Of a stretch of DNA of 36,453 bases, positions 6,318 through 29,532 are shown piece by piece (position 1 is the stretch's first letter; every line of letters begins with the position of its first letter). The DNA lies in assembly GCA_013349585.1 (NCBI GenBank), contig DUZG01000014.1:1-36453 (forward strand), given 5' to 3'. The notes under the pieces are model-generated. The model ran no database searches and was not told where the DNA came from. It was given only the letters and a program-made list of their open reading frames with translations. The DNA is from Nitrospinota bacterium (GTDB lineage Bacteria > Nitrospinota > Nitrospinia > Nitrospinales > VA-1). A program made the position numbers and the translations under genes.

Positions 6318-6332
6318 TTATATTTTCTCTCA

Positions 6333-6581
6333 TTACGCCCTTTGATCCAATTGAGTGCCCTTGTCTTCTTCCTGATCCTTGTCGACCATATCTTCTTTCT
6401 CTTCTTGCAGCAACATCGAACCTACTCCCCAAGCCAGTAAACCAAAAAGTATCGCACCACCAATCCCGCGAGAGATTCCCGTGAAAAAAGTCGCCCCCAT
6501 TAAAACACTGCCTATGGATAGAATTCCAAAGGACAGTAGACCAAACGAAGCGGCCATCTTTTGTATATTAAGGGGAGTCAT
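6333..6581 (-). CDS. Small two-TM membrane protein between flhG and fliA
   Basis: MTPLNIQKMAASFGLLSFGILSIGSVLMGATFFTGISRGIGGAILFGLLAWGVGSMLL + acidic tail; ATGA overlap with flhG stop (start at 6581). Confidence 0.7.
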   Translation of the reverse strand: MTPLNIQKMAASFGLLSFGILSIGSVLMGATFFTGISRGIGGAILFGLLAWGVGSMLLQEEKEDMVDKDQEEDKGTQLDQRA

Positions 6582-7441: not shown

Positions 7442-7468
7442 ATCTTAATCCCCTAATTTATCTTGAAA

Positions 7469-8530: not shown

Positions 8531-10607
8531 TCAAGTCCACCACACCTATCGTCTTTATCTGCACCGAAGGAGAAACCTCGCTGTGCGAAATGATTGCAAG
8601 ATCGGGTAAAAAGCGTTCCGTAAATTTTCGTATGTGCATTCTCAATCCTGGAGAAGCCAGTAATACCGGCGATGTCTCAAGAGTCGGCGTAATTTTTTCA
8701 ATCATAGACTTTAATTTTGTAAGAAATTTTTCCGCCGTATTTGGTTCCAATGCCAGATAAGCACTGGTTTCAGATTTTTGTATCGAACCTTCAATAATCT
8801 CTTCAATCCTTCGATCCAAAGTCAAAACAGACAGAGTTCCATCCGAAGATTGGTATTGTTTAGTGATAGGACGAGCTAAGGATTGACGTACATATTCCGT
8901 TAGCACATCCGCATCCTGAGTTAATGAAGCATAATCAGAAAGCTGCTCAAGAATTGTCCTGAGATCTCTAATAGAAATCTGTTCTTTAAGCAGGTTTTGA
9001 AGAACTTTCTGAACTTTTCCAAGAGGCAACAGGTTCGGGATTAACTCTTCAACCACTTTCGGGTTCGTCTCTTTAAACTTATCCAACAACGCCTGCGTTT
9101 CTTGACGACCCAGCAATTCAGGTGCATGCCGTTTAATCGTTTCTTTAATATGTGTGGTGATTACGGTTGCCGGGTCTACAACAGTGAACCCTGCCATCTG
9201 TGCTTCCTGTTTTTTATTACTCGGAATCCATACAGCAGGCAGTCCAAAAGTCGGCTCCGTAGTTCTAATACCATCTAATTCTCTTTCAGTTGTTCCAGGG
9301 TTCATAGCAAGTATCCGTCCCATCATTATAGAATCACGCGCAACATCCACGCCTTTGATAACCACCGAATATTCATTAGACTTGAGTTGCAGATTATCTC
9401 GAATATGTAACGGAGGAACAATAAAACCCATCTCCAATGCAAACTGTCTGCGAATAGATTTAATTCTTTCCAGAAGTTCTCCGTTGCGGTCTGCATCCAC
9501 CAGCGGGATTAATTCATATCCCACTTCCAACTCCAGAACATCAAGAGGAAGAATAGATTCCACTTTTTCCAGCAGCGGTGCTTTCGCTTCATCATCTTTC
9601 TTTCTTAGAGCCATTTGCTCGATTTTCGTGTCAGATTTAATTTTGTTGTAGGCAATTACCCCAGCAATCAACGACATTAAGAAGAATGGAAAATGTGGCA
9701 GCCCCGGAATCATACCGAAGAAGAAAAGAATGGCAGAGGCAATGATAAACGCATAAGGTTGATTGAGAAGCTGACTCATCAATTCACCCGGCAGGTTTTT
9801 ATCAGACTGCGCCCGTGTAACTACCAGACCCGCCGCTGTAGAAACCACCAAGGCGGGGAGTTGAGAAACCAATCCATCACCAATCGTAAGCAAAGTATAA
9901 ATTTGAGCCGCTTCAGCAGCTCCCAAACCCTGCTGAAAAACACCAATTGCAAATCCACCTAAAATATTTACAAGAGTGATGAGAATACCAGCGATAGCAT
10001 CACCACGAACGAAGCGAATGGAACCGTCCATGGAACCATAAAAATCTGCTTCGCGCTCCAGATTTCTTCTTCTGGTACGAGCATCCTGCTCTGTAATGAG
10101 TCCGGCATTCAAGTCGGCATCAATACTCATCTGCTTTCCGGGAATGGCATCCAATGTAAAACGTGCGGCAACTTCCGAAGTTCTTACAGAACCTTTTGTG
10201 ATTACAATAAAGTTGATCATTACCAGGATAATGAAAACAACTGTTCCAACAATAAAGTTGCCACCCACTACAAAGTTACCAAAAGATTCAATGACCTCGC
10301 CTGCGGCACTGGATCCCTGATCGCCGTTCAACAAAATGATTCGAGTGGAAGCAATATTCAACGAAAGCCGTAGAAGCGTTATGATTAACAGGAGTGACGG
10401 AAAAACAGAAAATTCCAAAGGCGACAACATAAAAACCGCCACCATCAAAATGATCAACGCAAAAGTAATACTGAAGGAAATTAGAATATCCAACAAGAAA
10501 GTAGGAATCGGCATCACCATGACACCAAGAATCACAATGATTCCCGTTGCAACCAATATTTCCTGAGGTCTTTGAGCAATTGCCTTTAAAACTTCATTTT
10601 GCGCCAT
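8520..10607 (-). CDS. flhA: Flagellar type III export protein FlhA
   Basis: 695 aa, multi-TM N-terminus, FHIPEP-like MSIDADLNAGLITEQDARTRRRNLEREADFYGSMDGSIRFVRGDAIAGILITLVNILGG. Confidence 0.97.
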   Translation of the reverse strand: MAQNEVLKAIAQRPQEILVATGIIVILGVMVMPIPTFLLDILISFSITFALIILMVAVFMLSPLEFSVFPSLLLIITLLRLSLNIASTRIILLNGDQGSSAAGEVIESFGNFVVGGNFIVGTVVFIILVMINFIVITKGSVRTSEVAARFTLDAIPGKQMSIDADLNAGLITEQDARTRRRNLEREADFYGSMDGSIRFVRGDAIAGILITLVNILGGFAIGVFQQGLGAAEAAQIYTLLTIGDGLVSQLPALVVSTAAGLVVTRAQSDKNLPGELMSQLLNQPYAFIIASAILFFFGMIPGLPHFPFFLMSLIAGVIAYNKIKSDTKIEQMALRKKDDEAKAPLLEKVESILPLDVLELEVGYELIPLVDADRNGELLERIKSIRRQFALEMGFIVPPLHIRDNLQLKSNEYSVVIKGVDVARDSIMMGRILAMNPGTTERELDGIRTTEPTFGLPAVWIPSNKKQEAQMAGFTVVDPATVITTHIKETIKRHAPELLGRQETQALLDKFKETNPKVVEELIPNLLPLGKVQKVLQNLLKEQISIRDLRTILEQLSDYASLTQDADVLTEYVRQSLARPITKQYQSSDGTLSVLTLDRRIEEIIEGSIQKSETSAYLALEPNTAEKFLTKLKSMIEKITPTLETSPVLLASPGLRMHIRKFTERFLPDLAIISHSEVSPSVQIKTIGVVDLNAN

Positions 10608-11143
10608 AATTTATACCTTCGATCCAACAAAAAATTGACAGTTTAAAACTCGACCTGTTTCCCAAGAAACCCCTTTAAACATAAAGTCTTTATCCGGTTT
10701 TTCAGTTATCGAGTGAATTCAGAAATCAGTCCATAACCCTTGATATAGCTAATAATGCAAGTGCCATGCCGCCCTCTTGCAAGAGAGACAATATGACATA
10801 GATTTTTTAGGTGTATAAGAGGTGAACTCGGCACGAGAAGTTGTCGGGCGACATAGATACCGGCTTTTCACACCATTTACGGAAGTCCACAAACGACTCA
10901 GGCTGTGTGAAAACGTAAAGTACAGATATTTTTTAAGTGACAGTTATCTCATTTATTTTTAATTCCAGATTAAGTTATTTTGAGTCTATTGGTTTTCTTG
11001 GTTCGGGTAGTATTTTTAAAAAATACCTATATATCAGCTTCTATTTTAGAAGCGGAAGGGTTATGTGCAAGAGCTACCATATAAGGGGCAACCGTTAGGC
11101 CAGCTTAGCGGGCATTGATTAGTTGCCTCCGACGGATCGCCGG

Positions 11144-12220
11144 TTAGCGGGGTTGGCCTGGGCTTTTGAGTTTGTAGACATAGGCCAGTATCTCGGCTAC
11201 GGCTTTAAAAAGTTCGTCGGGAATCTGTTGTCCTATTTCCACGGTTTTGTTCAATACTCGGGCCAGGGGTTTGTCTTCGACAATAGGGATATTGTGTTCT
11301 TTGGCAATTTCACGAATTTTCATAGCTACTTCCCCCGCTCCTTTGGCTACAATTATAGGCGCGGCATGGTTCAGCATATCGTATTTAATGGCTACTGAAA
11401 TATGAGTCGGGTTGGTAACAATAACATCGGCTTCGGGGACAGAAGACATCATCCGTTTTCGGGACATTTCCATTTGCGCTGTGCGTATGCGTTGTTTGAT
11501 CTGCGGATTCCCGTCTGTGTCCTTCCTCTCCTCTTTCACTTCCTGCTTGGTCATACGCAGGTTTTCTTTATAGGTAAATTTTTGGAACGAAAAATCAAGA
11601 AGCGATAGAAAAATCATTAGCACCAGAACTTCGAAAATGATCTCTAGAGCGACTTGCCCCATGAAAGACAATATCCCCCCTACTCCTAACCCCATCAGAG
11701 GTGGAATTTCTGTCCAATGCGCTTTAATCGTATAATAGGAAGCGACTGAGATGACCCCAACCTTGAAAAGGGACTTGAATAATTCCATCACAGAATTCTT
11801 TGAAAATATTCGCCCAAATCCTTTCAGTGGATTCAGCTTACTGAACTTCGGTACCAGAGGATGACCCGAAAAACGAACCCCCCCAATTTGAACCACATTA
11901 GAAGCGACACCCGCAAACATGATCATCAAGAGAAATGGGCCAACGATTTTAACAAAGGCCTTCATTGAGTTAACCGCAACCTTATATAACTCTTCTATAC
12001 TGAGTTGAATGTAGCTGGCTTCAGAAATCATGGTATGCCAGGCTTCCAAAACATTACGTGTGCTTTGATCGCCCGTTATCATAAAGCCCGAAAGAGCAGC
12101 CAATAGAATAAATGCGGAGTTGATTTCCTTACTGTGGGCAAAGTTACCCTTATCTTCGGTATCTGTGATTCGTTTGGAGGAGGGTTCCTCTGTTTTTTGA
12201 TCTTTATTGTCGTCTGCCAT
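11144..12220 (-). CDS. flhB: Flagellar type III export switch protein FlhB
   Basis: DQKTEEPSSKRITDTEDKGNFAHSKEI; autocleavage motif NPTH (DVIVTNPTHISVAIKYD). Confidence 0.96.
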   Translation of the reverse strand: MADDNKDQKTEEPSSKRITDTEDKGNFAHSKEINSAFILLAALSGFMITGDQSTRNVLEAWHTMISEASYIQLSIEELYKVAVNSMKAFVKIVGPFLLMIMFAGVASNVVQIGGVRFSGHPLVPKFSKLNPLKGFGRIFSKNSVMELFKSLFKVGVISVASYYTIKAHWTEIPPLMGLGVGGILSFMGQVALEIIFEVLVLMIFLSLLDFSFQKFTYKENLRMTKQEVKEERKDTDGNPQIKQRIRTAQMEMSRKRMMSSVPEADVIVTNPTHISVAIKYDMLNHAAPIIVAKGAGEVAMKIREIAKEHNIPIVEDKPLARVLNKTVEIGQQIPDELFKAVAEILAYVYKLKSPGQPR

Positions 12221-12326
12221 CTTGTTCTTTCAGTTTTATATTTCTACAGCAGGAGTATTCAAAAATATTGCCTGCATTTCTTTACTAAGAAGCAACCCCT
12301 TCATTCCCCCTTATCAGAGGGGGAGA

Positions 12327-13103
12327 TTAAATTCCCCGCATGAACCCCATAAATCTTTCAGGCAAGGCATGCATTTCCTGCTGAACTAAAACACTAAAGA
12401 AGGATATCGACATCCCCACCATTAAAAGACCGACACCGATCTGCAACGGAAAACCCACAATAAAAACGTTCATTTGTGGAACTGTTCGAGCCACTAGCCC
12501 CAACCCAACACTTAAGAAGAAAAGAATAGCCATGATTGGGGCCGCAATTTTTATAGCAGTCGTAAAGGTCGCAGAGAACAGGTGCAAAACATACTCCGGA
12601 GTAATGCTGGCAAAATTTATTTCAAAAGGATTAATGATAAAGAAACTTTCAACAATCGCCTGAATGATGTAGTGATGTGCATCGAGCGCCAAAAAAATCA
12701 GTATCGCGAGAATATTATGGAACTGCGCCGTTACCGAAACCTGAGTATCTGTCTGCGGATCGATTACGTTTACAACCCCAAATCCCATTTGAAAATCCAC
12801 AACTGTTCCAGCAATCTGAACCGCTGTGAAAATGAGCCTAGCAATATAAGCAATACCCAACCCTATCGTTACATCGGCCATCAAAAATTTTACTAACTCA
12901 AAAAGCCCTTGCGGCTCTGGCATAGGTCTATCGTGAACCAATGGAAAAATTGCCATCGAAAGAAAGAGCGTCAGCCCAATTTTCATAACGGTCGGAATCT
13001 GCTTACTACCTAGAATAGGAACAAAAATGATCATTGCCCCAACGCGAAATAATACGAAAAGAAATCTTTCGAATTCCGCGTAATTGAGATTTAGAATGTC
13101 CAT
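12327..13103 (-). CDS. fliR: Flagellar biosynthesis protein FliR
   Basis: 258-aa multi-TM; QMGFGVVNVIDPQTDTQVSVTAQFHNILAILIFLALDAHH. Confidence 0.95.
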   Translation of the reverse strand: MDILNLNYAEFERFLFVLFRVGAMIIFVPILGSKQIPTVMKIGLTLFLSMAIFPLVHDRPMPEPQGLFELVKFLMADVTIGLGIAYIARLIFTAVQIAGTVVDFQMGFGVVNVIDPQTDTQVSVTAQFHNILAILIFLALDAHHYIIQAIVESFFIINPFEINFASITPEYVLHLFSATFTTAIKIAAPIMAILFFLSVGLGLVARTVPQMNVFIVGFPLQIGVGLLMVGMSISFFSVLVQQEMHALPERFMGFMRGI

Positions 13104-13372
13104 TACTGGATATACTCAGGGAAGTTGGTTAAAATTTTTGAAGTGAAGGTGAGCATCAACTGCATCAACCATGGGAAGAAAAGTAGAATGGAAAGAAAGA
13201 CCGCCAGAATCTTAGGGATAAAGGTCAAAGTGATTTCCTGAATCGAAGTCACCGCCTGAAAAATGGAAACCGCAAGACCGGTCACCAACCCAAAACCCAG
13301 CATAGGGGCGGATAGGAGCAAGGTCGTCTTAATGCTTTCCATAGCAAAATCTATAATAAATGCCTGATCCAT
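13103..13372 (-). CDS. fliQ: Flagellar biosynthesis protein FliQ
   Basis: 89 aa two-TM; LGFGLVTGLAVSIFQAVTSIQEITLTFIPKILAV. Confidence 0.95.
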   Translation of the reverse strand: MDQAFIIDFAMESIKTTLLLSAPMLGFGLVTGLAVSIFQAVTSIQEITLTFIPKILAVFLSILLFFPWLMQLMLTFTSKILTNFPEYIQ

Positions 13373-13379
13373 AACTTAG

Positions 13380-14138
13380 CTAGCCTCCAAAACTTCGCAT
13401 GAGTGATCCTACTGTCAAATACCATCCATCAACCATGACGAACAGCATCAGCTTAAAAGGTAGCGAGATTAAAACAGGGGGCAGCATCATCATACCCATC
13501 GACAGCAGAATACTCGCCACCACCATATCTAAAATCAAGAATGGAATATAAATTAGAAATCCAATCTGAAATGCAGTTTTCAATTCACTAATGATGAAAG
13601 CTGGAATCAATGAACGGATATCGATATCTTCATTAGTCGTCGGGTTCTCCCCAGAGATTTCAATAAACAATGACAAATCTTTTTCACGTGTTTGCCGTAG
13701 CATAAATTCCTTGAGAGGCATCTCTGCTTTTTTAAGCGCATCCGTCTGAGAAATTTCTTCATTCAAAAAGGGTTGCAAAGCTTTCTCATTGATCTCTGTC
13801 CAGGTAGGCCCCATAACAAAAAGTGTTAAGAACAAACCCAAGCCAATCAAAATCTGCGTCGGCGGAGTTTGCTGTGTGCCCATCGCCTGCCGGAGAAATG
13901 AAAGGACAATTATGATCCGCGCAAATGAAGTGGTCAAAATTAGAATCGATGGGGCCAGAGTCAGAATCGTCAACAGAAAAAGAATTTGCAAAGCACTGGA
14001 TACTTTTTCCGGATCTTCTACATCATCCATTCCCAGTTGAATGGATGGCAGTGATATAGCCTCTGCAAAGGGAACCATTCCGCCCCAAACAAGGGCCGTT
14101 GTAAGAATCAGTAATATAAATATAATTTTTCTAGTCAT
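13380..14138 (-). CDS. fliP: Flagellar biosynthesis protein FliP
   Basis: LTILTLAPSILILTTSFARIIIVLSFLRQAMGTQQTPPTQILIGLGLFLTLFVM. Confidence 0.96.
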   Translation of the reverse strand: MTRKIIFILLILTTALVWGGMVPFAEAISLPSIQLGMDDVEDPEKVSSALQILFLLTILTLAPSILILTTSFARIIIVLSFLRQAMGTQQTPPTQILIGLGLFLTLFVMGPTWTEINEKALQPFLNEEISQTDALKKAEMPLKEFMLRQTREKDLSLFIEISGENPTTNEDIDIRSLIPAFIISELKTAFQIGFLIYIPFLILDMVVASILLSMGMMMLPPVLISLPFKLMLFVMVDGWYLTVGSLMRSFGG

Positions 14139-15430
14139 GCTCTTGCCGTTTTTAACTTTCCAATTTTTTGCAAAATTTGATCCTTCGCATCTGCAACCGT
14201 TTGCTCTTTAGCGTCTTTAGGTGTTGCATATTTATTCAAGTAACTCGAAAACTTCCCCGCCGCTTGTGCTGCTACGGAACGAGTACTTTTTTCGCCTGCG
14301 GGTGCAGAGTTCCAACCCAGCTCACTCTTGCCTTTACCACCGGCATTCTTTATTTCTTCAATTTTTCCTTCATCTGTAATGCTACTGAGAAGTGTGATGC
14401 TATCCTGCGATATACCCAGCACAAGAACCTCGCCAGCCACTTCTACCAAAGCAATATTCTTTTTCGGACCCAAAAACCATGTTCCCAAAACATTCACTAG
14501 TTTATTTCCACCGCCAAAGGCTGTATTTTTCAGCACATATTTTTTGAACCCGAAAAAAATCAAGAACATCAATCCCAGCACCAAGGCAAACATGGATATC
14601 ATTTTCAACCCAGAGGGGACCAACTCCATCGGCTTCCCTGTGGCTCGTGAGTCCTTTAAGGAAAAACCCTTATTATCTTTCGTTGTGATTTTTGATTTAT
14701 TTTGGACGGCATCCTTTTTATCTTTATCAGAACTGTACAATGCTACTTTTTTAATTTGATCGACCAGGGGGGCAACTCCCATCCCCGCGCGTTTGACTTT
14801 TATTTCGGAGGATTGAGGTTCTACTATTTTAATAGTCGGTTCTTTTTTCTTAACTGCGGGAGCCAAACTTTCTTCCTGCCTCTTCATTTTTTTCGATGCA
14901 CGAGAAAGGAACTCAGTTAATTCCTTATCTCCCATAACATCTGTATTTTGAATTTTCTGTGAAACTGCCTTTAAAGAACCTATGACGGACTCTACATAAG
15001 CCGTATCGAACCGAACAATTATGAACCGGCCTTGCGATACCAGTTTGAATCTCTCTTTAATATCATCGGTGCCAGGTTTAATATGAAAACGCACTCGCAA
15101 AGTCTCACCATCGAACTGACTGGCAAAAACTTTTGTGACCATAGAGCTATCTGCAGCAAAACTTTTTTTCGCAGGCTCAATAAAAGCTCCTGGAAAATCA
15201 AGTTGCACAGATTTTTCGTAAAAAACCGGCTCGGCCCAATTCTCAACTGGGTTTTCAAATTCCAGGCGAACTATATGACCGTTACTCATTAAATGGGAAT
15301 GAACCTTTATTAATGGATTTAAAGAATCCCATTTGCCTTTTACTTCTAGCTGGTTACTGGCCCCGGCCAAGCTGGTAAAAACGAGTAAAAAGAGATGTGA
15401 AAAAGTCAGGAGTTTTGAAAAATTTTTCAT
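14135..15430 (-). CDS. fliO: FliO-type flagellar protein with long N-terminal extracytoplasmic AMIN-like domain
   Basis: Position 5' of fliP; signal peptide, beta-rich N-terminus (LEVKGKWDSLNPLIKVHSHLMSNGHIVRLEFENPVE...), TM (MISMFALVLGLMFLIFFGF) then FliO-like LGTWFLGPKKNIALVEVAGEVLVLGISQDSITLLSSI; Met at 15430 preferred over 15472. Confidence 0.8.
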   Translation of the reverse strand: MKNFSKLLTFSHLFLLVFTSLAGASNQLEVKGKWDSLNPLIKVHSHLMSNGHIVRLEFENPVENWAEPVFYEKSVQLDFPGAFIEPAKKSFAADSSMVTKVFASQFDGETLRVRFHIKPGTDDIKERFKLVSQGRFIIVRFDTAYVESVIGSLKAVSQKIQNTDVMGDKELTEFLSRASKKMKRQEESLAPAVKKKEPTIKIVEPQSSEIKVKRAGMGVAPLVDQIKKVALYSSDKDKKDAVQNKSKITTKDNKGFSLKDSRATGKPMELVPSGLKMISMFALVLGLMFLIFFGFKKYVLKNTAFGGGNKLVNVLGTWFLGPKKNIALVEVAGEVLVLGISQDSITLLSSITDEGKIEEIKNAGGKGKSELGWNSAPAGEKSTRSVAAQAAGKFSSYLNKYATPKDAKEQTVADAKDQILQKIGKLKTARA

Positions 15431-15642
15431 TTGCTGCACCTTTGATCTTAGTAAATACGTCAAAAAAACCAACGCTTTTGGTTTAATTAACTAAGAATGC
15501 AAAGACTGTACCTAAACGCACAAAAAAAACTTTTTGGGATATTTTTTATCAGGGGAGGTTGTTGAGCAGAAAAAACGGCAAATAACCAGGACAGAAGTCT
15601 GCCTAATAAGACAATCAGTCCTCTCGCATAAACCGGTCTGGT

Positions 15643-16026
15643 TTATGAGAGGGACTGAACGCGTTCCATAGGTGAAACGATATCGGTGAGTCTCACACCA
15701 AACTTTTCATTGACAACAACGACTTCACCACGGGCCACCAGTTTTTGGTTAACCAATACTTCCAGAGGTTCACCCACCAGTTTTGTCAACTCGATTACCG
15801 AGCCCTGCCCTAATTGCAGAAGATCGTTGATCAACATTTTGCTACGCCCCAATTCAACGGCCACTGTGAGAGGAATATCTAGAATAAGATCAAGACTTTT
15901 GGTTTCTTCACCCGTTGCCGGGGCAGCCTCATCATTATCTAAATCATCACCAACTTCGCCAGCCGCATCAATATCACCAATGTCATCTAAGGCATCAAAA
16001 TCTTCTTTTGCAGCTTCATCTTCCAT
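15643..16026 (-). CDS. fliN: Flagellar motor switch protein FliN (start at 16026 or 16047)
   Basis: LDLILDIPLTVAVELGRSKMLINDLLQLGQGSVIELTKLVGEPLEVLVNQKLVARGEVVVVNEKFGVRLTDIVSPMER. Confidence 0.95.
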   Translation of the reverse strand: MEDEAAKEDFDALDDIGDIDAAGEVGDDLDNDEAAPATGEETKSLDLILDIPLTVAVELGRSKMLINDLLQLGQGSVIELTKLVGEPLEVLVNQKLVARGEVVVVNEKFGVRLTDIVSPMERVQSLS

Positions 16027-16030
16027 GAGC

Positions 16031-17014
16031 TTATCCTTCCCTTTCAATTGTTTCTGTTAACTGGACCGCTTTATTCCCACGAGAAACACCGGGGAACCCT
16101 TTAAATTTGGGAATTTGTTCTACCTTCAAGGTCAACGGATCTGTTACATCATTTCCCAACATAAGCGTATCACCAACTTTGAAGTTCATTAATTCCTGCG
16201 GAGTTATTGTACTTGTTCCAAGCTCGGTAACCAGCTCTACCTCCGTTGTCAATAATTCTGTGCGTAAACGCCGAACCCAAACCTGATCCACTTCCATCTC
16301 TTCACTCTGGAACTGTGCTTTAAGCTTGGGAATAATGGGTTCAATAGCTGCATAAGGAAGACAAATAGTTAGAGTCCCCGATATGCTTTCCATCTCAATT
16401 TCAAAAAGTATGACCAAAACAATGTCAGTAGGAGGAACAATAGCCGCAAATTGCGGGTTCACCTCTGATCGAACAAAGTTCGTTGTCACCGTATGTACCG
16501 GACGCCAAGCTTTTTCCAGATCTCCCAACGCACTCAGAACCACGCTCTTGGTCATCCGGATTTCAATGGAGCTGAAATCTCGACCGGTGATCTTGGCCTC
16601 TTGTGTCCCGGAGCCTCCAAAAAAAGTATCGACCACTGCAAAAACCAGTTTGCTTTCCACAATCATCAGACCATGACCACGCAAAGGTTCCATACGAAAA
16701 ATATGCAAACTGGAAGGAATAGGTAATGAACGCAGGAAATCGCCAAACTTGATGGTATCGGTTGAAACGGTGCTGACATCGACCGACTTTCGCATCAAAG
16801 TGGAAAAGGTATTTCGAAATAACCTGGAAAACATCTGGTTAATGATGTCCAGAGTTGGTAGGCGTCCACGAATGATCTTTTCCTGACTGGTCAGGTCATA
16901 AGGTATGACACCCGACTCATCTTCTGGAGCTTCATCGGTTTCGGTCTCAACCTCACCATCGCCGACACCTCTTAACAACGCATCGACTTCTCCTTGGGAT
17001 AAAACCTCACTCAT
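16031..17014 (-). CDS. fliM: Flagellar motor switch protein FliM
   Basis: MSEVLSQGEVDALLRGV; YDLTSQEKIIRGRLPTLDIINQMFSRLFRNTFSTLMRKSVDV. Confidence 0.96.
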   Translation of the reverse strand: MSEVLSQGEVDALLRGVGDGEVETETDEAPEDESGVIPYDLTSQEKIIRGRLPTLDIINQMFSRLFRNTFSTLMRKSVDVSTVSTDTIKFGDFLRSLPIPSSLHIFRMEPLRGHGLMIVESKLVFAVVDTFFGGSGTQEAKITGRDFSSIEIRMTKSVVLSALGDLEKAWRPVHTVTTNFVRSEVNPQFAAIVPPTDIVLVILFEIEMESISGTLTICLPYAAIEPIIPKLKAQFQSEEMEVDQVWVRRLRTELLTTEVELVTELGTSTITPQELMNFKVGDTLMLGNDVTDPLTLKVEQIPKFKGFPGVSRGNKAVQLTETIEREG

Positions 17015-17044
17015 AACTCTAGCCTTGTTTGAAAATCCATTTTA

Positions 17045-17566
17045 TTACTGAATAATGAACTCACTAAAATATGCGTCTTTCACATGCCCCACCACCAAAA
17101 AGCGATTGACGCGCGTGGTAACTTCATCTTTGAGTTTGAACTTGCCCTGCACTGAATATACATCTTCAAAAGATTTGCTACTCAATAAAACAAGAATGGA
17201 GTCTGTGACTTTTTGAATATTCTCTTTTAACTCCGCGTGAACTTCAGGGGTACTCAACTCTAATGAAATAGTAACTTTCAGAAACCGTTTTCCCTCACTA
17301 CCGGCAAGGTTTAAGATGAAAGGGGCTAGAGGAAACATGACACCCAAGTTAACGTCTTCTCCTATCTCTTCTGCTGCGCCTTTCTCAACTTCAACAGGGA
17401 CCTCTTCAGCTGGTTTTTCCTGTAAAAAGGTAATATAAGCATAATATCCGCCTCCACCCAGCACTAACAGACCAACAATAATGCCAATGATCATTCCCAT
17501 TGACTTTTTTTTACCTCCAGCCTCAACGGCCTCCAAATCTTCTAGCGTGCCATCTTCTTCAGCCAT
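17045..17566 (-). CDS. fliL: Flagellar basal body-associated protein FliL
   Basis: Single TM, FPLAPFILNLAGSEGKRFLKVTISLELSTPEVHAELKENIQKVTDSILVLLSSKSFEDV; 5' of fliM. Confidence 0.9.
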   Translation of the reverse strand: MAEEDGTLEDLEAVEAGGKKKSMGMIIGIIVGLLVLGGGGYYAYITFLQEKPAEEVPVEVEKGAAEEIGEDVNLGVMFPLAPFILNLAGSEGKRFLKVTISLELSTPEVHAELKENIQKVTDSILVLLSSKSFEDVYSVQGKFKLKDEVTTRVNRFLVVGHVKDAYFSEFIIQ

Positions 17567-18118: not shown

Positions 18119-19447
18119 ATGAAAATCAATATTCCGGACCATAGGACTAAGAAACCTTGGGCAATCATGGCTTTAATATTTGTAGGAGTCATTATATTGC
18201 CTTCTATGGCTCTGGCCGAAGAAACACCTGTTTTAAACTCAGGTGATACTGCCTGGATGCTGACAGCCACAGCCTTGGTTCTATTTATGACCATACCCGG
18301 ACTTTCATTATTTTATGGGGGCATGGTGCGCAGTAAAAACATATTATCTGTGCTCATGCAGTGTTTCGCTATCACCTCACTCATGACTCTTTTATGGGTT
18401 TTATACGCGTACAGCATCGCATTTGGCGGTGATGGCCCCTACTGGGGAGGGTTGAGCAAAATGTTTCTCGTAGGTGTGGGTGTTGATTCACTCAGTGGCA
18501 CCATCCCGGAAACCGTATTTATGACCTTCCAGATGACCTTCGCCATTATCACCCCTGCTTTAATGGTAGGAGCCTTTGCCGAGCGTATGAAGTTCTCGGC
18601 GATGCTGATCTTCATGACAATATGGATGACCCTCGTTTACGCCCCGATTTGTCACTGGGTCTGGGGTAGCGGTGGCTGGCTTGGCAATAAAGGAATCCTC
18701 GATTTTGCTGGTGGTACGGTTGTACACATTAATGCTGGTGTTGCAGGTCTGGTCGCGGCTATCGTTTTAGGTAAACGTAAGGGTTACCCGACCACCGCCA
18801 TGCCGCCACACAACCTCGGTTACACGCTGATAGGGGTTTCCATGCTCTGGGTCGGGTGGTTCGGATTCAATGCCGGAAGTGAACTAGCAGCCGATGGAGT
18901 CGCAGGAATGGCCATGGCCGTAACACAGATTGCAACCGCAACCGCCGCATTGAGTTGGATGTTCATCGAATGGGTAAAACACGGCAGGCCAAGCGTGCTG
19001 GGAATTGCTTCAGGTGCGGTGGCCGGTCTGGTCGCTATTACCCCTGCTTCTGGAGCGGTTGGCCCCATGGGAGCTATTGCAATTGGCCTTGCGTCAGGTG
19101 CGGGCTGTTTCATCGCATCTACATCACTCAAACGTGCTATGGGTTATGACGACTCCCTGGATGTTTTCGGAATACACGCAGTCGGCGGAATCATCGGTGC
19201 CATTTTAACCGGGGTGTTCTGCGCAGAGTCTCTGGGGGGTGCCGGTTTCGGCGGGGATATCAACAGCATCGGTGATCAGATTACAGTACAAGCCCTCGGC
19301 GTTGGCGCAACCATGTTCTACACAGGAATCATTAGCTTTATTATCCTGAAAGCCCTCGATGGAATTATGGGTCTCAGAGTCACCGATGACGATGAAAGCG
19401 AAGGTTTGGATCTCTCGCAACACGGTGAGCGGGGTTATATTATCTGA
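18119..19447 (+). CDS. amt: Ammonium transporter Amt with N-terminal signal peptide
   Basis: DTAWMLTATALVLFMTIPGLSLFYGGMVRSKNILSVLMQ; FAGGTVVHINAGVAGLVAAIVLGKRKGY; VFGIHAVGGIIGAILTGVF. Confidence 0.96.
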   Translation: MKINIPDHRTKKPWAIMALIFVGVIILPSMALAEETPVLNSGDTAWMLTATALVLFMTIPGLSLFYGGMVRSKNILSVLMQCFAITSLMTLLWVLYAYSIAFGGDGPYWGGLSKMFLVGVGVDSLSGTIPETVFMTFQMTFAIITPALMVGAFAERMKFSAMLIFMTIWMTLVYAPICHWVWGSGGWLGNKGILDFAGGTVVHINAGVAGLVAAIVLGKRKGYPTTAMPPHNLGYTLIGVSMLWVGWFGFNAGSELAADGVAGMAMAVTQIATATAALSWMFIEWVKHGRPSVLGIASGAVAGLVAITPASGAVGPMGAIAIGLASGAGCFIASTSLKRAMGYDDSLDVFGIHAVGGIIGAILTGVFCAESLGGAGFGGDINSIGDQITVQALGVGATMFYTGIISFIILKALDGIMGLRVTDDDESEGLDLSQHGERGYII

Positions 19448-19601
19448 TTAACAAGTAAGTAATTGACTTATATAATATTAAGCTATTGCTTATAGGGTTA
19501 TTTTAAGTAGAATATGCGCATATATTATCATTTAAAAGAGATTGTTGATATAAATAGGCATTAGCCTTTTGAAAAGGATAGATATCTATAAAGGAGTAGT
19601 T

Positions 19602-20750
19602 ATGTACAAAATGAAAAGGTTTTTAATTGATGGGTTTATTACCAGTGCCATTATGTTTGGTCTCGTAAGCACAGCTTATGCAGATTCAGCTTTGGAGCTG
19701 ATAAAAGATATTGAAGTGCATGGTTTTTCATCTTCATCCTATTCTCAAAACTTTGCAAACCCTACAGGAACAAGACAAAACGCCCTACGCGTTTATGACT
19801 TTGACGCAAACACTTTCAAATTTGACGTTGCGGAACTTGTTCTTAAAAGAGATGCTTCCGAAAAAGGCGATGTCGGATTCCGTACGGACATAACTTACGG
19901 TTTCAGTGGGCCCCAAGCAAATAAAGTCGGTGGGCCTAATGTTGGGGGAACCGATGTCAGCGATGATGATTTTGATTTGCAGATTGCGTATGTTCAATAC
20001 AACGCTCCCATTGGAAATGGATTGTTGATTGATGCAGGGAAATTTGGCACCAATATAGGTTCAGAAGTCATGGACGGATACGATGGATATAATTATTCCT
20101 TTTCCAGATCCTTCCTATTCTTCCTCGGGCCATTCACGCATAACGGAATACGCGTGCAATATCAATTGAGTGACACCGTGGGTCTCTTAGGCATACTCTC
20201 CAATGGCCATGACACCACCACAGATACGAACGATTCAAAGGGGTTTGGAGGACAAATCTCCTGGGCGGTATCTGACTCGGCAGTTGTTTATTTAAATTAT
20301 TTTGGCTCGGCAGAACCACAAACCGGCGTTCCCAATAATGCAGACGACATCAGAAATTTTTTCGACACGGTCATCGAGGTCAGCCTAAGTAAAAAACTGT
20401 TATTGAATTTGAATGCGGTATACGGCTCGGAAGATGATGCCACGGGACCCAACACCGGGGATCACACTTGGTGGGGGTTTTCTGGGATCGTTCGTTATGA
20501 TGTCAATAACTGGCTCTCTCTAAATTATCGTGCTCAAATTTTTCACGATCAAGATGGAGCTCGTTCAGGATCAAGACAGAAGTTATGGGCTATGTCGCTC
20601 ACACCAGAAGTTAGAATCAATAGCAATATGGTTGTCCGGGCGGAGTATCGTCATGATGAATCGGATCACTTTGTCTTTTCTAACCGAGATGGCGCTGGGC
20701 AGTCTTCTACCCAAGATACCCTTGCCCTTAACGCCTTGTTTTACTTTTAG
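19602..20750 (+). CDS. Outer-membrane beta-barrel porin (bbp2-like)
   Basis: Signal peptide, EVHGFSSSSYSQNF...NTFKFDVAELVLKRDASEKGDVGFRTDITYG, alternating beta-strand pattern, terminal aromatic ALNALFYF; AAGGAG RBS before ATG 19602. Confidence 0.85.
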   Translation: MYKMKRFLIDGFITSAIMFGLVSTAYADSALELIKDIEVHGFSSSSYSQNFANPTGTRQNALRVYDFDANTFKFDVAELVLKRDASEKGDVGFRTDITYGFSGPQANKVGGPNVGGTDVSDDDFDLQIAYVQYNAPIGNGLLIDAGKFGTNIGSEVMDGYDGYNYSFSRSFLFFLGPFTHNGIRVQYQLSDTVGLLGILSNGHDTTTDTNDSKGFGGQISWAVSDSAVVYLNYFGSAEPQTGVPNNADDIRNFFDTVIEVSLSKKLLLNLNAVYGSEDDATGPNTGDHTWWGFSGIVRYDVNNWLSLNYRAQIFHDQDGARSGSRQKLWAMSLTPEVRINSNMVVRAEYRHDESDHFVFSNRDGAGQSSTQDTLALNALFYF

Positions 20751-23254: not shown

Positions 23255-23290
23255 AACAAAAAAAACCCGCCGGAAATCCGGCGGGCTTTC
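23255..23290 (-). terminator. Intrinsic terminator of the cytochrome operon
   Basis: CCCGCCGGA-AA-TCCGGCGGG at 23266-23285; on the minus strand followed by TTTTTTTT-G; just downstream of the 23309 stop. Confidence 0.85.
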
Positions 23291-23308
23291 TTATATTACT
23301 TCTAATGA

Positions 23309-25081
23309 CTACTTAGGAAGCTCGTCACGACGCATTTTCCCTTCATCATACATTTTACGTGTACGCTTTGTCATCCATACCAACCAACCTTGAAAGCAGA
23401 TAAAAACCGCTGCAATGATAGGAGGCATGTAGTACAAAGAAGCAGGTAATGCTGGCTTCAAAATGGTGTAATACCATGTAGATATAGCCATATGTTCATC
23501 ATGCTCTTTATCTCTACCCGACCATTGAAAGAAACTAACTGGAATGAACTGTTCAGATGGAATCTGAACATCAAACTCGCCTTCCGTTTTCAATGATCTT
23601 TTGAACATAACTTTGACACGACCTTGATGATAAATGGAATCTACAATTTCCACTTTAGCTTCAGACTCTTTGTCAGATAAAGCATCAAATCCATTTCCTA
23701 CGAATTCTTTAACACTCATATCCAATTGATAGCCTTTTTCATTTGGCGCATTGGTAGCACTATAATCCTTGGCCATGAAACTAGCTTTCCAAATATCAAC
23801 TGGTTTCTTGGAATCCCCGTAAATGAAATACGGTTTTTCAGCACCAAAAAGATCCTGCAATTTTGCAGGCCATTGTATTGCGACAGCATCCGGATACTCC
23901 GGATCTGCAGACATAAAACGTTGGTCGTATTCTACCAAATAATAAACAGCTTGCTCTTCAGCACTCCATCGAGTAGTTACCCAGAGGTTATCCGCTTTAG
24001 GATCAAAGTTTCGTTTACCACGAGTAATTTGACCCGCCATAGCAATATGATGCCTTTTTGGGTTTTCTTTTAACTCTTCCGTAGCTGAAACTATCCTATC
24101 GTCCGTATCTGAAGACTGCCAACTTGGATCGTCTATCTTCGGAACAACTTGCCCCTCTGTATAAACAGATTGAATAAGGAAATCGGGTATTGGCTTGAGC
24201 GTCAATGCATCGATTTTCTTTCTCGGGCAAAGTGAGTTTACAAATGCTGCTACTTGCCATCTTTCAGGTCCAGTTAGTTGTTCCCGAAAGTTAGGCATTG
24301 GCGTGCCATTTAGGCCCGTAGATATAGCTCGAGCAATAACGAAAGGATTGTATACATCTCGACGAGCTCCACGATGGTTCCAACATTGTTGCCAGTTTGC
24401 AGCAACTATTGGAAAACCCCAATCATCTTTCATTGTTGGGTTACCATCTCCACGACCTTCACCACCATGACATTCCCAGCATTTATTCTTCATAAATAGC
24501 TCTTTACCAGCATCAACATGCTCTTGAGGAATTCCAAGATGGTACGGACCTTTAGTTTCGGCCCAAGGTGGATCTCCTAGCGGACCCTTACCTGAATCGC
24601 CTAGATCTGCATCGACCCCGGTGATCACATTATTTACTTCTTCGTCTTCATCGCTAAAGTCTCGATCTTGCACAAGACTTTTTACGAATTGAACAACTGA
24701 AAGGATTTCATCTTTAGATAAAAATTCTCCCCAAGCAGGCATTGCAGAACCTTGAAGACCATTCTTAACTGTATTTATCAGATTTATATCCAATGGAAGT
24801 TCTCCAGAATCCGTCCAGCGAATTTTAAAGGTTCCTTGGATAAAGTTTCTAGGTCTAGTGAAGAGACGATCTGCAGCAGGCCCATCACCGCCACCCTCTA
24901 CTCCGTGACACCAGACACAACGTTTAAAATAAACCTTCTTTCCCGACTCTAGCATGTCTTTATTGATCGGGTCCGGTACACCAGCAGCTAAAGCTGTACC
25001 CGGTAACATAATCATCGCCATTGCCAGAAAAGATAAAATCAGGCGTTTGATGTAATTATTGTTTGTCATGATCATTTCCAT
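23309..25081 (-). CDS. Exported di-heme cytochrome c with ethylbenzene dehydrogenase/NXR-gamma-like heme-binding domain and C-terminal TM
   Basis: Signal peptide; CVWCHG and CWECHG heme c motifs; EB_dh-like region (HHIAMAGQITRGKRNFDPKADNLWVTTRWSAEEQAVYYLVEYDQRF...DAVAIQWPAKL); C-term TM YYMPPIIAAVFICFQGWLVWM. Confidence 0.8.
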   Translation of the reverse strand: MEMIMTNNNYIKRLILSFLAMAMIMLPGTALAAGVPDPINKDMLESGKKVYFKRCVWCHGVEGGGDGPAADRLFTRPRNFIQGTFKIRWTDSGELPLDINLINTVKNGLQGSAMPAWGEFLSKDEILSVVQFVKSLVQDRDFSDEDEEVNNVITGVDADLGDSGKGPLGDPPWAETKGPYHLGIPQEHVDAGKELFMKNKCWECHGGEGRGDGNPTMKDDWGFPIVAANWQQCWNHRGARRDVYNPFVIARAISTGLNGTPMPNFREQLTGPERWQVAAFVNSLCPRKKIDALTLKPIPDFLIQSVYTEGQVVPKIDDPSWQSSDTDDRIVSATEELKENPKRHHIAMAGQITRGKRNFDPKADNLWVTTRWSAEEQAVYYLVEYDQRFMSADPEYPDAVAIQWPAKLQDLFGAEKPYFIYGDSKKPVDIWKASFMAKDYSATNAPNEKGYQLDMSVKEFVGNGFDALSDKESEAKVEIVDSIYHQGRVKVMFKRSLKTEGEFDVQIPSEQFIPVSFFQWSGRDKEHDEHMAISTWYYTILKPALPASLYYMPPIIAAVFICFQGWLVWMTKRTRKMYDEGKMRRDELPK

Positions 25082-25113
25082 ATGTTTAGGTTTTAGTAAC
25101 CGAAAGTTTATTT

Positions 25114-26079
25114 TTAACCTTCAGAGCCTTCTGTACCAAATGTTCTTGGATGCCAGCCTGTATACCAATACTCAAACAGAATGACCTTCCAAATTTCCTC
25201 GGTTTTCAAATGCTCTTCCCAAGGTGGCATTGCTGACGACCATGGGGTGGACTCGTTCGGTAGACCCGGTCCGCCCTTGGATACCCGCCAGAAAATAAAT
25301 GCTTCCTGCAACATGGCTATGGTGCCCGGATCAATAAAGTTTGCCGGAGTGGGGTTGAAAACATGTGAGAACATTCCCAATCCGTTTAATTGATCTCCAT
25401 GACAAAAATGACAATTTTGGAAGAAAATCGTACCGCCTTCTGTCACATACTTCATGTACTCATGCTTATCCGCATCAAGAAACGGGAAACTATCTTTATA
25501 GTTATCCTGCTCATCAACACGAAACGGGTTATTCGTGGATTCCAGCGGATAAGTCTTGCCATGCACCTTAGTGGTGGCAGGAGGCGCTGGATGCACCGTC
25601 CTCAACTCAACCGGTTCCTGGAAACTTGGATAAATAGACTGATATGTTGCCCACCCCACCAAAATTGGCATTGCGATCATCAAAACGATCTGCGCCAATT
25701 TATACTCACCTACGATTGCTTTAACAATCGGTTTTCTGAACTCACGAAAGGTTTCCGGATCCTGACTGATATAAAGAAAGGTTCCTATTGACCACATCAC
25801 CATATAGGTAATGAAAAGAGTCCATGGAATCGGTGGATACAAAACGAATTTGTAGAAATAAAAACCTATACCCCACACAAACAAGCCCATCATAGAAATG
25901 GGTGGCTTGAGCCTGAGTATAAAGTGCGTGATTATCAAATAGGCTACGAATAACAAAAAGTAAACATACCTATTTAAAAACCAGCCGACCTCCTTCGGTG
26001 TAAATATTGGAAATATAGCATTATGAAACACCGCCAGGCCGACAACAAATACCAAAAAGCTAACTAAAGTCTTGTTCAT
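25114..26079 (-). CDS. Membrane-anchored mono-heme cytochrome c (about 5 TM plus c-type domain)
   Basis: Five N-terminal hydrophobic segments; NCHFCHGDQLNGLGMF heme motif; C-terminal MPPWEEHLKTEEIWKVILFE. Confidence 0.8.
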   Translation of the reverse strand: MNKTLVSFLVFVVGLAVFHNAIFPIFTPKEVGWFLNRYVYFLLFVAYLIITHFILRLKPPISMMGLFVWGIGFYFYKFVLYPPIPWTLFITYMVMWSIGTFLYISQDPETFREFRKPIVKAIVGEYKLAQIVLMIAMPILVGWATYQSIYPSFQEPVELRTVHPAPPATTKVHGKTYPLESTNNPFRVDEQDNYKDSFPFLDADKHEYMKYVTEGGTIFFQNCHFCHGDQLNGLGMFSHVFNPTPANFIDPGTIAMLQEAFIFWRVSKGGPGLPNESTPWSSAMPPWEEHLKTEEIWKVILFEYWYTGWHPRTFGTEGSEG

Positions 26080-26091
26080 TGCTGCCTCCTA

Positions 26092-27462
26092 TTAACTGCC
26101 AGCCGGAGCTTCGGTCTGACTAATAAAATCCACAAGCTTATCGAGTGCTTCAACTGAAAGCATCTGCCCGAAAGTTGTAGGCATTAAACCATCCGGAAAA
26201 GATTCTCCGGCTTCCTCATTATACACCACGTATGCGCTAGGTTTTAGAATTGATTCCCTAACATATTCTTTGGTGTTAGTTGCATTTCCTTTATAGTTGG
26301 GATCTTTGATTCGCTTTGGAGCATTGATCTTCTCGTGAAGCTTTGGCCCCAATTCACCCATGGCACCTTCAACGCCAGGAATGGTATGACAAAGTGGGCA
26401 ACCTAATGTATTGATCATGGCCTGAATATCTTCCTGACCTGTCACAAATGTAGGCGCATCTTCATCACCACCGCTATCCTCTTCAACCACGGCACCACCT
26501 GTGTTACCGGCATCATCTTGCGGTAACGGAACGGTTACCGAAGCATATTCACCCGGCGTGTCTTTGGATTGTAGATAGGCAACGACCGCATTCAACTCAA
26601 CCCTGCTCAAACTTATCGGCGGCTTTACAATTACAGGCATCGGGCTTTTGGTATCTCCCGCTTTACCAAATCCTGTTACAACATAACAGGTCGGACACAT
26701 GAGAGATTCGCGAATATAATCTTCACCAATCAACTCTTCCGGACCATTTTGCCGTCGATACTCTTCTGGAATGTCAGCAGGCATTCCTTTGACAATACCA
26801 GAAGCAGGCTCCGTTTCGCCAATTTTCATAGGCAAATTCAAATACCTATCTTCTTTAATACGGTCATGACTTCTTTTTTCAACTCCAAACAAGTTTGGAC
26901 ATCGACCCATATGATCGCCTGGGTCAAAGGTGTGACATAAAGGACATTGCCCTTTACCAATAGATTTCTGACCTGCCACCTGTTTTGCGCCAAAAATAAT
27001 TACGCGTCCCATTTCAGCAAATTCTTCCATGGTGACGTCACCAACAACTGCCGCCTCTTTTGGTGGCGGATCACTACGCTGCTGCGGCAACCAATTTGTA
27101 TAACCCGCAAGCAATACAGAAACCGTGGTCCAGAAAAAGAAACCTCTAATGATTGGAGGTGATTGACTTTCAATATTATTGCTCTTGAAGAATATTCCCC
27201 AAGTGAGCAACAACACAATGATAAGCCAAATATAAATTGAAAAGAAAAAACTCAACTGCTCACCCTGGTTCAAACTAAACATATGAACCGTCATCATAAA
27301 AGATGCGATTGCAAATATGCCAAAAACTCCACCCCACATTTTGCCGCCGGACAGTTCTCTTTCTCGACAATTCAGCACTACATTGCCAAAAACGAATACC
27401 CCAAAAACGGCGAATACAATCGAAAGAAACGAAAATAAAATATCATGCTGCTCTGGTAACAT
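26092..27462 (-). CDS. Membrane-anchored cytochrome c with two c-type heme domains (about 4 TM)
   Basis: Four N-terminal hydrophobic segments; two CPLCHT motifs (QCPLCHTF, GCPLCHTI). Confidence 0.8.
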   Translation of the reverse strand: MLPEQHDILFSFLSIVFAVFGVFVFGNVVLNCRERELSGGKMWGGVFGIFAIASFMMTVHMFSLNQGEQLSFFFSIYIWLIIVLLLTWGIFFKSNNIESQSPPIIRGFFFWTTVSVLLAGYTNWLPQQRSDPPPKEAAVVGDVTMEEFAEMGRVIIFGAKQVAGQKSIGKGQCPLCHTFDPGDHMGRCPNLFGVEKRSHDRIKEDRYLNLPMKIGETEPASGIVKGMPADIPEEYRRQNGPEELIGEDYIRESLMCPTCYVVTGFGKAGDTKSPMPVIVKPPISLSRVELNAVVAYLQSKDTPGEYASVTVPLPQDDAGNTGGAVVEEDSGGDEDAPTFVTGQEDIQAMINTLGCPLCHTIPGVEGAMGELGPKLHEKINAPKRIKDPNYKGNATNTKEYVRESILKPSAYVVYNEEAGESFPDGLMPTTFGQMLSVEALDKLVDFISQTEAPAGS

Positions 27463-27544
27463 TTTTCCCTCTCTCCTATACCCTCAGATTAAATCCGGAT
27501 CGCGCTTCTTAATAGGCCAGAAGCGCGACCCAAACAGATAATGG

Positions 27545-29515
27545 TTATTGTTGTTGCTGCGCAGGAACCGGAACTGCTACTGGAGTCTTAACAGGCGATT
27601 TACCCGTCAAACTACCTACCCAAAAGACGACAACAAACTGTGTCCAAACAAACAGAGTGTTAAAGGTAAGCATTTTACCCGCCTCACCAATCGTCAAAGT
27701 GTACGCATCAACAGAGTTATCGCGAACAACTTCCGTTACATGCCAGAACAATCGAACGGCTGAACGGATATAACCCATAAGACCCATCAACCAAGTGAAG
27801 GAAATTGCCAACAAGAAAATAGCATATGTTCCAACCTTGGATTGCGTGCCCCACTGAATATCGCCATAAGACTCAGAGTTCTTAAACATGGAGATATTGA
27901 TCGCGGTACCCGCAAACAGAGTCGTAAGTGTTGTTGTAACCTGAGGCACAGAAAGTCCAACTCGCTGATTAGCAGGAAGAGCATAACCATATACGCCCAA
28001 GAAGATGATGTTAGCAGCGGCGCCAACAAAGATAGCCGCAATCCAACAGTTCCCTACAGTTGCCCACGGAACAGTGATTTTCTTATTTGCCCTCTGATAA
28101 AGAAGGAAACAGAGAATCGTGGTCGTGATCATCAGGTTCACCGCTGTATTTTTCGCCGACATCACACCAAAGTGACCTACGATCGGATGTTGAGCCCCAC
28201 CCATTGCCTTCAATTCGGCGGGGGTCATCACAATCGTATGAGGTGTCATCCACATCGTAAAACAACAGATCAAGAGAAGAACCATATACTTACAATACTT
28301 CATATATCGGTGCGATCCCTTGACCCTGGCCATCCCATTATGTAGATAGGAGTTAGCCGCGAAGAACAGTAAGCCGATCATTACAGCCTGGATGATGAAC
28401 AACCAAGCCATGATGCCACCCATAAGGGTGATACCCATCTGCTGACGGAACGCATACACTTCCTTCATCAACCAGTAACCAGCGAAGGGAAGCGGAATTA
28501 AACCAAAGATACAAATAAACATGGCGACATAACAAACCCAGTCATAATGCGCACGCTCTTCTTCGTTTTTAGCTGTTAGATAATGATATGCGGCATACGC
28601 ACCAACGATTCCGCCACCGAATACGATATTGCCAAGAATACGGTGAACCCCAACCGGATTCCAAAGTGTGGAATGAATGACATGCCAGATATTACCAAGG
28701 AAACGGCCTTCTGAATCAATTCCACCGGGAGCCTGCATAAAGGTTGCCCAGGAATTGGCCAGATACATCAGAACCGTACCAATGAGGTTGAGAAGAACTG
28801 AAAGACTACAATGAACCCATTTCAGGAATGGATCATCATTCATCTTGTCCCAACCGTAGTAGTAGACATAAAGAACACCAGACTCCGCCAAGAACATAAG
28901 CGCATAAACGTGCATAACAGGACGAAAAATTCCTGCCATATACTTAAAGAATCCAGGGAACAGAGTGATAAACGTAAAGAGAAGAATACCTCCGAGAATA
29001 GCAGTCCAAGAATACGCAGTCAGACTGACCTTCATAAGGTCTTTCGCCAACCGATCATATTTTCCAGACATCACAGGATCTTCTTCCCGGACACGAATTC
29101 CAATGAACTCGATCAACATACAGAAAATCGGCACTGCAAGAACAAAACTACCGAAATAAAGATGCTGCTGATTCGCTACCCAAAGAATGATTCGACTAGG
29201 TGCAAATTCATAATTATTGTAATCCTCCGGCCCTAACTCCGGCGCAGGATAGCCGCTAACCGGCCCCTTAAGTGGATTGCCTTCCCAGTCCTTATAAAAA
29301 ACGTCCTGGCCCCACTCAATTTCTGGCTCGCCTTCACCCTCAACTGCCTCTTCTGCTAAAACTTCTTTAGCAAAGGCCTCTTCAGCAAAAACTTGTTCAG
29401 CAAATGCCTCTTTCGCATCTGCAATGCCGGTCATTCCTGGAATTAGGTAAACGGCGATTGCCAAAACCAATCCCAGTGCAAATGTACCGATGTTTCGAGT
29501 CTTTTTCCCCAACAT
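27545..29515 (-). CDS. Cytochrome bd ubiquinol oxidase subunit I-like protein (CydA-like), with signal peptide and repeat-bearing N-terminus
   Basis: CydA-like RIILWVANQQHLYFGSFVLAVPIFCMLIEF, FLAESGVLYVYYYGWD (CydA FLES..GWD-like), VLMYLANSWATFMQAPGG, HRILGNIVFGGG; strong RBS AAGGAGG. Confidence 0.82.
   Translation of the reverse strand: MLGKKTRNIGTFALGLVLAIAVYLIPGMTGIADAKEAFAEQVFAEEAFAKEVLAEEAVEGEGEPEIEWGQDVFYKDWEGNPLKGPVSGYPAPELGPEDYNNYEFAPSRIILWVANQQHLYFGSFVLAVPIFCMLIEFIGIRVREEDPVMSGKYDRLAKDLMKVSLTAYSWTAILGGILLFTFITLFPGFFKYMAGIFRPVMHVYALMFLAESGVLYVYYYGWDKMNDDPFLKWVHCSLSVLLNLIGTVLMYLANSWATFMQAPGGIDSEGRFLGNIWHVIHSTLWNPVGVHRILGNIVFGGGIVGAYAAYHYLTAKNEEERAHYDWVCYVAMFICIFGLIPLPFAGYWLMKEVYAFRQQMGITLMGGIMAWLFIIQAVMIGLLFFAANSYLHNGMARVKGSHRYMKYCKYMVLLLICCFTMWMTPHTIVMTPAELKAMGGAQHPIVGHFGVMSAKNTAVNLMITTTILCFLLYQRANKKITVPWATVGNCWIAAIFVGAAANIIFLGVYGYALPANQRVGLSVPQVTTTLTTLFAGTAINISMFKNSESYGDIQWGTQSKVGTYAIFLLAISFTWLMGLMGYIRSAVRLFWHVTEVVRDNSVDAYTLTIGEAGKMLTFNTLFVWTQFVVVFWVGSLTGKSPVKTPVAVPVPAQQQQ
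29346..29420 (-). repeat. 5 x 15-bp in-frame tandem repeat in the bd-like gene
   Basis: Plus-strand units GCCTCTTCTGCTAAA / ACTTCTTTAGCAAAG / GCCTCTTCAGCAAAA / ACTTGTTCAGCAAAT / GCCTCTTTCGCATCT, encoding AKEAF AEQVF AEEAF AKEVL AEEAV-type pentapeptides. Confidence 0.8.
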
Positions 29516-29532
29516 GGTTTTAACCTCCTTTT

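Follow-up and report, generated by a model that had tools for sequence, protein, structure and literature searches.

The four-gene cluster analysed here is already known as the bd-like_3/alternative-NxrC cluster of Nitrospira, its equivalent in Nitrospina and, by gene order, kustd1709-1712 of Kuenenia, and we are highly confident that it encodes a conserved electron-transfer module. The original prediction of an unconventional respiratory complex is borne out insofar as a conserved multi-cytochrome module is assembled on a CydA-like core without CydB. Its claim to be a discovery does not stand, because the four-gene order matches published descriptions (PMC6606698, PMC8026999; see also PMC3578206). 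Our full proposal, in which the module forms a cytochrome c-fed, bd-like (OR-N) membrane complex with oxygen as the most likely acceptor in Nitrospinaceae, is one that we hold with evenly balanced confidence. Complex stoichiometry, haem content, electron path and acceptor are predicted throughout.

The window, i.e., the whole analysed stretch of 36,453 nucleotides, is part of a Nitrospinaceae-type MAG of 2.02 Mb that is about 76% complete. The open reading frames of the four same-strand genes were confirmed at the predicted positions, as were the strong ribosome binding site and the terminator that flank them (Table 1). Gaps of 82, 12 and 32 nt separate genes 1-2, 2-3 and 3-4, respectively, and we infer that genes 1-4 form one operon and are transcribed as such. 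None of the partners predicted to be missing from the cluster (CydB, haem-copper oxidase, molybdopterin subunit) was found within it, and CydB (PF02322) was also absent from the remainder of the 76% complete genome. The closest relatives of gene 1 are from Nitrospina and Nitrospinaceae MAGs, and similar flanks are present in relatives (e.g., L085, L088, L089). A plasmid search gave no match. Elsewhere in the window, an ammonium transporter-like gene followed by a gene for a porin-like outer-membrane protein (18119-20750) adjoins flagellar-type genes (5556-17566).

Table 1 Features of the bd-like/alternative-NxrC cluster, with positions counted from the first nucleotide of the window
Feature	Position	Strand	Length	Description
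Gene 1	27545..29515	(-)	656 aa	CydA-like (bd-like, OR-N class) membrane core
Gene 2	26092..27462	(-)	456 aa	Membrane-anchored diheme cytochrome c, 2x CPLCH, about 4 TM
Gene 3	25114..26079	(-)	321 aa	Membrane monoheme cytochrome c, CHFCH, 5 TM
Gene 4	23309..25081	(-)	590 aa	Exported diheme cytochrome c with NxrC/EbdC-like domain and C-terminal TM helix ('alternative NxrC')
Ribosome binding site AAGGAGGT of gene 1	29523..29530	(-)		Strong; 7 nt before ATG
Intrinsic-terminator-like hairpin 3' of gene 4	23259..23292	(-)		15 pairs, T tail

The predicted CydA-like nature of gene 1 was supported by a match to PF01654, confined to residues 108-355 (E 3e-20), and by structure. An AF2 model built on a 46-sequence alignment (pLDDT 84.9, pTM 0.82), which superseded a poor model from a shallower alignment (pLDDT 46.7), retrieved CydA chains as best Foldseek matches (E 5e-9), with ten CydA chains at E <= 2.3e-5. 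The Foldseek match to the ActC/NrfD-like subunit of alternative complex III (6btm_C) was non-significant (E 0.1). Neither an internal duplication (N-terminal half against C-terminal half or middle) nor a hidden CydB (two-sequence CydB profile against either half) gave usable similarity in hhalign comparisons (E 0.03-0.25). In our own tree, gene 1 groups with bd-like proteins of Nitrospirota and apart from CydA. A repetitive AKEAFAEQVFAEEAFAKEV stretch at about residues 30-60 is found in Nitrospinales and is absent from two aligned Nitrospirota orthologues.

The alignment of haem ligands and Q-loop with CydA that had been recommended for gene 1 was made with E. coli CydA plus 53 further relatives. 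His118 and His291 correspond to E. coli His19 and His186 and are, together with His235 (E. coli H126), invariant across 46 bd-like sequences; equivalents of Arg448 and Trp451 are retained as well. In canonical cytochrome bd, haem b558 is ligated by His186 and Met393, and the di-haem oxygen site carries Glu99 and Glu445 (PMC6853902). The Met393 column holds Thr457 in gene 1, in a weakly aligned region where another Met could ligate the haem. Glu99 is replaced by Tyr204, which is invariant in the 46 bd-like sequences, and Glu445 by Ser585, in a column assigned by counting from R448/W451. The columns of Lys252 and Glu257, the Q-loop residues of the quinol site, are both Met, and this loss of quinol residues in the bd-like protein was published earlier (PMC3578206). 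A canonical bd quinol oxidase with its CydB encoded elsewhere would share the PF01654 match and the CydA fold, but CydB was not found in 27/31 Nitrospinales genomes tested, the window's own included. Given the loss of CydB together with that of the quinol, E99, E445 and M393 residues, the gene 1 module is, on sequence grounds, not a canonical bd oxidase, a conclusion that is new here, and we rule out this reading as having next to no probability. The OR-N class, in which the bd-like proteins of this cluster have been placed (PMC10839748, PMC12342949), is marked by a core of the CydA superfamily that has neither a quinol site nor CydB, as is the case for gene 1; oxygen reductase activity of this class is unproven in the literature (PMC10839748). 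As OR-N1 and OR-N2 are the types named for Nitrospinota (PMC10839748), gene 1 may belong to OR-N1.

Both CPLCH motifs predicted for gene 2 are present, whereas its four predicted transmembrane helices were reproduced by hydropathy only as three clear ones and a weaker fourth. By its similarity to Kustd1711 (PDB 7zs0, E 5.9e-8) and its two CxxCH motifs with distal Met loops, as in a Kustd1711-type diheme cytochrome, gene 2 is a homologue of a structurally solved cytochrome of about +350 mV, a link that is new here. Kustd1711 is a calcium-tuned diheme cytochrome with a Ca2+ beside each haem, which is held by backbone carbonyls, a haem propionate and water, not by side chains (PMC11791136). In both L191 and L195, a CydA-like protein continues at its C-terminus into a gene-2-type domain (i-Evalue 3.5e-42 and 4e-45). 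These fusions in two distant genomes, also new here, suggest a physical complex of the CydA-like core with the gene-2-type cytochrome. The fused CydA-like proteins form a paralogous clade outside the window's own clade in the tree, and thus the inference to the window complex goes by homology. For gene 3, the hydropathy count of five transmembrane helices and the single CHFCH agreed with the prediction. Its orthologues lie adjacent within the module in two phyla, and hhalign against a two-sequence CydB profile detected no similarity. The suggested structural substitution of haem c subunits for CydB is thus putative.

All four genes occur in the same order at 42 of the 54 loci that encode gene 1, far beyond chance, and the proposed neighbourhood survey thereby confirmed conservation of the cluster; the remaining loci end inside the cluster (11/54) or are broken by an N gap (1/54). 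Gene 1 itself was present in 37/37 searched genomes of the window's order, with a partial copy in G014. In profile searches, A-like genes of deep Nitrospinota (L188, L190, L192, L194, L196, L200; gene order differs in L190) and of Nitrospirota (L047, L054, L184, L185, L197, L198) likewise had all four partners around them, with partner homology in these distant lineages at E 1e-10 to below 1e-200. An apparent loss of genes 3 and 4 from L045 (CP070799.1) is not informative, as N runs interrupt the sequence; although titled a chromosome, this record is broken by 100 N at intervals of about 3 kb, as if contigs had been concatenated.

Gene 4 had been described as an exported protein with two CxxCH motifs and an EB_dh-like domain. 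In accordance with this, it has a signal-like N-terminal helix, two cytochrome c domains with the motifs CVWCH and CWECH, and a sub-threshold EB_dh match (E 1.3e-5), besides a TIGR03477 match (E 5.5e-11) and a C-terminal transmembrane helix at residues 545-563. Its diheme half resembles PDB 6h5l chain B (E 7.6e-76) and its EB_dh half resembles NXR-C (7b04, E 1.7e-18) and EbdC (2ivf, E 1.8e-11). The window shows, in order, the bd-like protein, two membrane c cytochromes and the EB_dh/diheme protein that mark the NXR-linked alternative-NxrC cluster. The similarity to NXR-C and EbdC would suit a function of gene 4 as an alternative NxrC by which NxrAB is held at the membrane, in a complex dedicated to nitrite oxidation. 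However, the haem-b ligands of NXR-C, Met155 and Lys305 (PMC8387239), fall on Tyr421 and Met533 in gene 4 and both positions vary across the family, which makes a haem b in gene 4 doubtful; the non-conservation of these ligands is new here.

Distribution of NXR also speaks against such a dedicated role. NXR was searched with a Nitrospina-type NxrA sequence, since TIGR03479 never matched at cut-off and picked other molybdoenzymes and was therefore dropped. The window's genome has the start of nxrA on another contig (G000:C75:5993-6130, 91% identity, residues 10-54 only), and no NXR genes lie near the window cluster. In many Nitrospinaceae MAGs nxrA is cut at contig ends, so that failure to find it in a MAG carries little weight. 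Still, the module is present in genomes, some of them incomplete, that gave no NXR match (G026, which is 96% complete, G047, G021, G022) or only distant molybdoenzyme matches (G053, G054, G063, G068, G072). As judged from its occurrence in genomes without detected NXR, the module is not NXR-specific, which is a new finding, and wiring dedicated to nitrite oxidation is weakened to a quite improbable explanation.

It is an acknowledged open question how oxygen is reduced by marine Nitrospinaceae that have no haem-copper oxidase (PMC8026999, PMC8115632), and the window cluster is one of two candidate loci for this function. Full-length COX1 and CydB were absent from most Nitrospinales searched. 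The only haem-copper signal in the window's 76% complete genome was a weak broken fragment, and short COX1-like frames were found in several other Nitrospinales genomes. Five genomes (G008, G009, G017, which is a single contig, G019, G037) had no match to either COX1 or CydB, leaving bd-like proteins as their only candidates for an oxygen reductase of known type. Because several Nitrospinaceae lack both haem-copper oxidase and CydB, the bd-like proteins probably perform the oxygen step in these organisms.

The other candidate, type B, is a second bd-like locus of Nitrospinaceae, in which the gene for a CydA-like protein of 690-730 aa precedes two others, one for a diheme cytochrome (CFNCH, CAVCH or CSVCH) and one for a product of about 160 aa (L086:7585-11034, L087:9179-12612, L090:41-3485, L091:6893-10252, L093:7877-11224). 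It accompanies type A, the kind found in the window, in 30/31 Nitrospinales genomes tested (as fragments only in G019 and G020) and was not detected in the window's own genome, which is incomplete. Type B of Nitrospinaceae retains a Glu at the E445 position. In the Nitrospirota locus L201 (6084-8675), two adjoining CydA-like genes (408 and 440 aa) both have Glu at this position and look like a CydAA'-type pair.

We propose that genes 1-4 constitute a single operon and that their products assemble into an electron-transfer complex in the membrane, of the bd-like (OR-N) kind already known. High-potential electrons, in nitrite oxidizers from NXR, would enter on the periplasmic side, where the anchored NxrC-like protein would accept them at its two haems c, and would travel by way of the two membrane cytochromes, diheme and monoheme, to the b-type haems of the CydA-like core. 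In this aerobic Nitrospinaceae lineage, oxygen would be the most likely end acceptor, and the complex would operate, by itself or together with the second bd-like protein of these genomes, as a bd-like oxidase supplied by cytochrome c. Kustd1711-like haems at about +350 mV would make gene 2 suited to downhill transfer to oxygen. Several observations count against oxygen, however. Anaerobic anammox Kuenenia has a same-order cluster beside NXR, and its whole NXR cluster, including kustd1709-1712, was down-regulated in a NO-fed reactor without nitrite (PMC6423088). Both Glu of the di-haem site are lost (Y204, S585), whereas type B keeps the one at the E445 position. A-like modules also occur without type B in genomes with haem-copper oxidases (G027, G053, G054, G063, G072, G101), and hence the module need not be the main oxidase in these six. 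An oxygen role is thus favoured in Nitrospinaceae by the lack of alternatives, while the presence of such a cluster in anammox bacteria and the loss of Glu ligands urge caution, and we give oxygen as final acceptor a slightly less than even chance.

A competing hypothesis, proposed earlier for this cluster (PMC3578206, PMC6606698), is reverse electron transport, by which proton motive force would drive electrons from NXR or cytochrome c (about +350 to +420 mV) to quinone for CO2 fixation, with type B performing the oxygen step. Co-regulation of the same-order Kuenenia cluster with NXR (PMC6423088), the loss of the canonical oxygen-site Glu residues in type A but retention of a Glu in type B, and Nitrospira quinones at +57 to +59 mV (PMC12324825) agree with it. 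However, gene 1 lacks the canonical quinone-site residues, and complex III could do the same job; its cytochrome b was present in 23/23 genomes tested, and reverse flow thus does not require the module. We consider reverse transport rather unlikely. In a broader idea, to which we attach tentative confidence, the module would predate nitrite oxidation, be independent of it and serve lithotrophic respiration in general. It would then be a bd-like enzyme that lacks CydB, is supplied by cytochrome c and has had its haem site remodelled, with periplasmic electron donors that differ among Nitrospinota, Nitrospirota and anammox bacteria. Testing of the role of each locus should be eased by the solved structure of a gene 2 relative, the genomes without detected NXR, the fusions and the differing ligands of types A and B.

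The conserved cluster has been described in Nitrospinae, Nitrospirae and anammox bacteria (PMC8026999, PMC3578206). In Nitrospira moscoviensis, the bd-like_3 cluster, which combines alt_NxrC_2 with two membrane c cytochromes, has the same four components as the window cluster, and alt_NxrC_2 has one transmembrane helix and two haem motifs, like gene 4 (PMC6606698). Paired bd-like genes about 5.5 kb apart in Nitrospirota L184 and L185 match the reported Nitrospira bd-like_3/bd-like_4 duplication (PMC6606698), whereas Nitrospinaceae have a single copy and no nearby bd-like_4 paralogue; the CydA-like protein of the window is about 58% identical to aligned Nitrospirota copies. The cluster of Nitrospina gracilis, Ca. 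Nitrohelix and Ca. Nitronauta is the same as that of the window and comprises a bd-like protein in which helices replace the Q-loop, two c cytochromes and a membrane alternative NxrC (PMC3578206, PMC8026999). One of these descriptions names a diheme and a triheme cytochrome (PMC8026999), while CxxCH counts in the window are 2, 1 and 2. The order in Kuenenia, with kustd1709 diheme, 1710 monoheme, 1711 diheme and 1712 CydA (PMC6423088), equals that of the window in a comparison drawn from papers and PDB chains, but the Kuenenia cluster adjoins nxr and the window cluster does not. The crystallized construct of Kustd1711 comprises a third domain besides its two haem domains, and gene 2 has N-terminal transmembrane helices in addition. 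With canonical cytochrome bd (CydAB; qOR) the module shares the CydA fold, His19/His186 and the Arg448/Trp451 equivalents; it differs by lacking CydB and the quinol site, by the replacement of E99, E445 and M393, and by having extra helices in place of the Q-loop as well as haem c partners.
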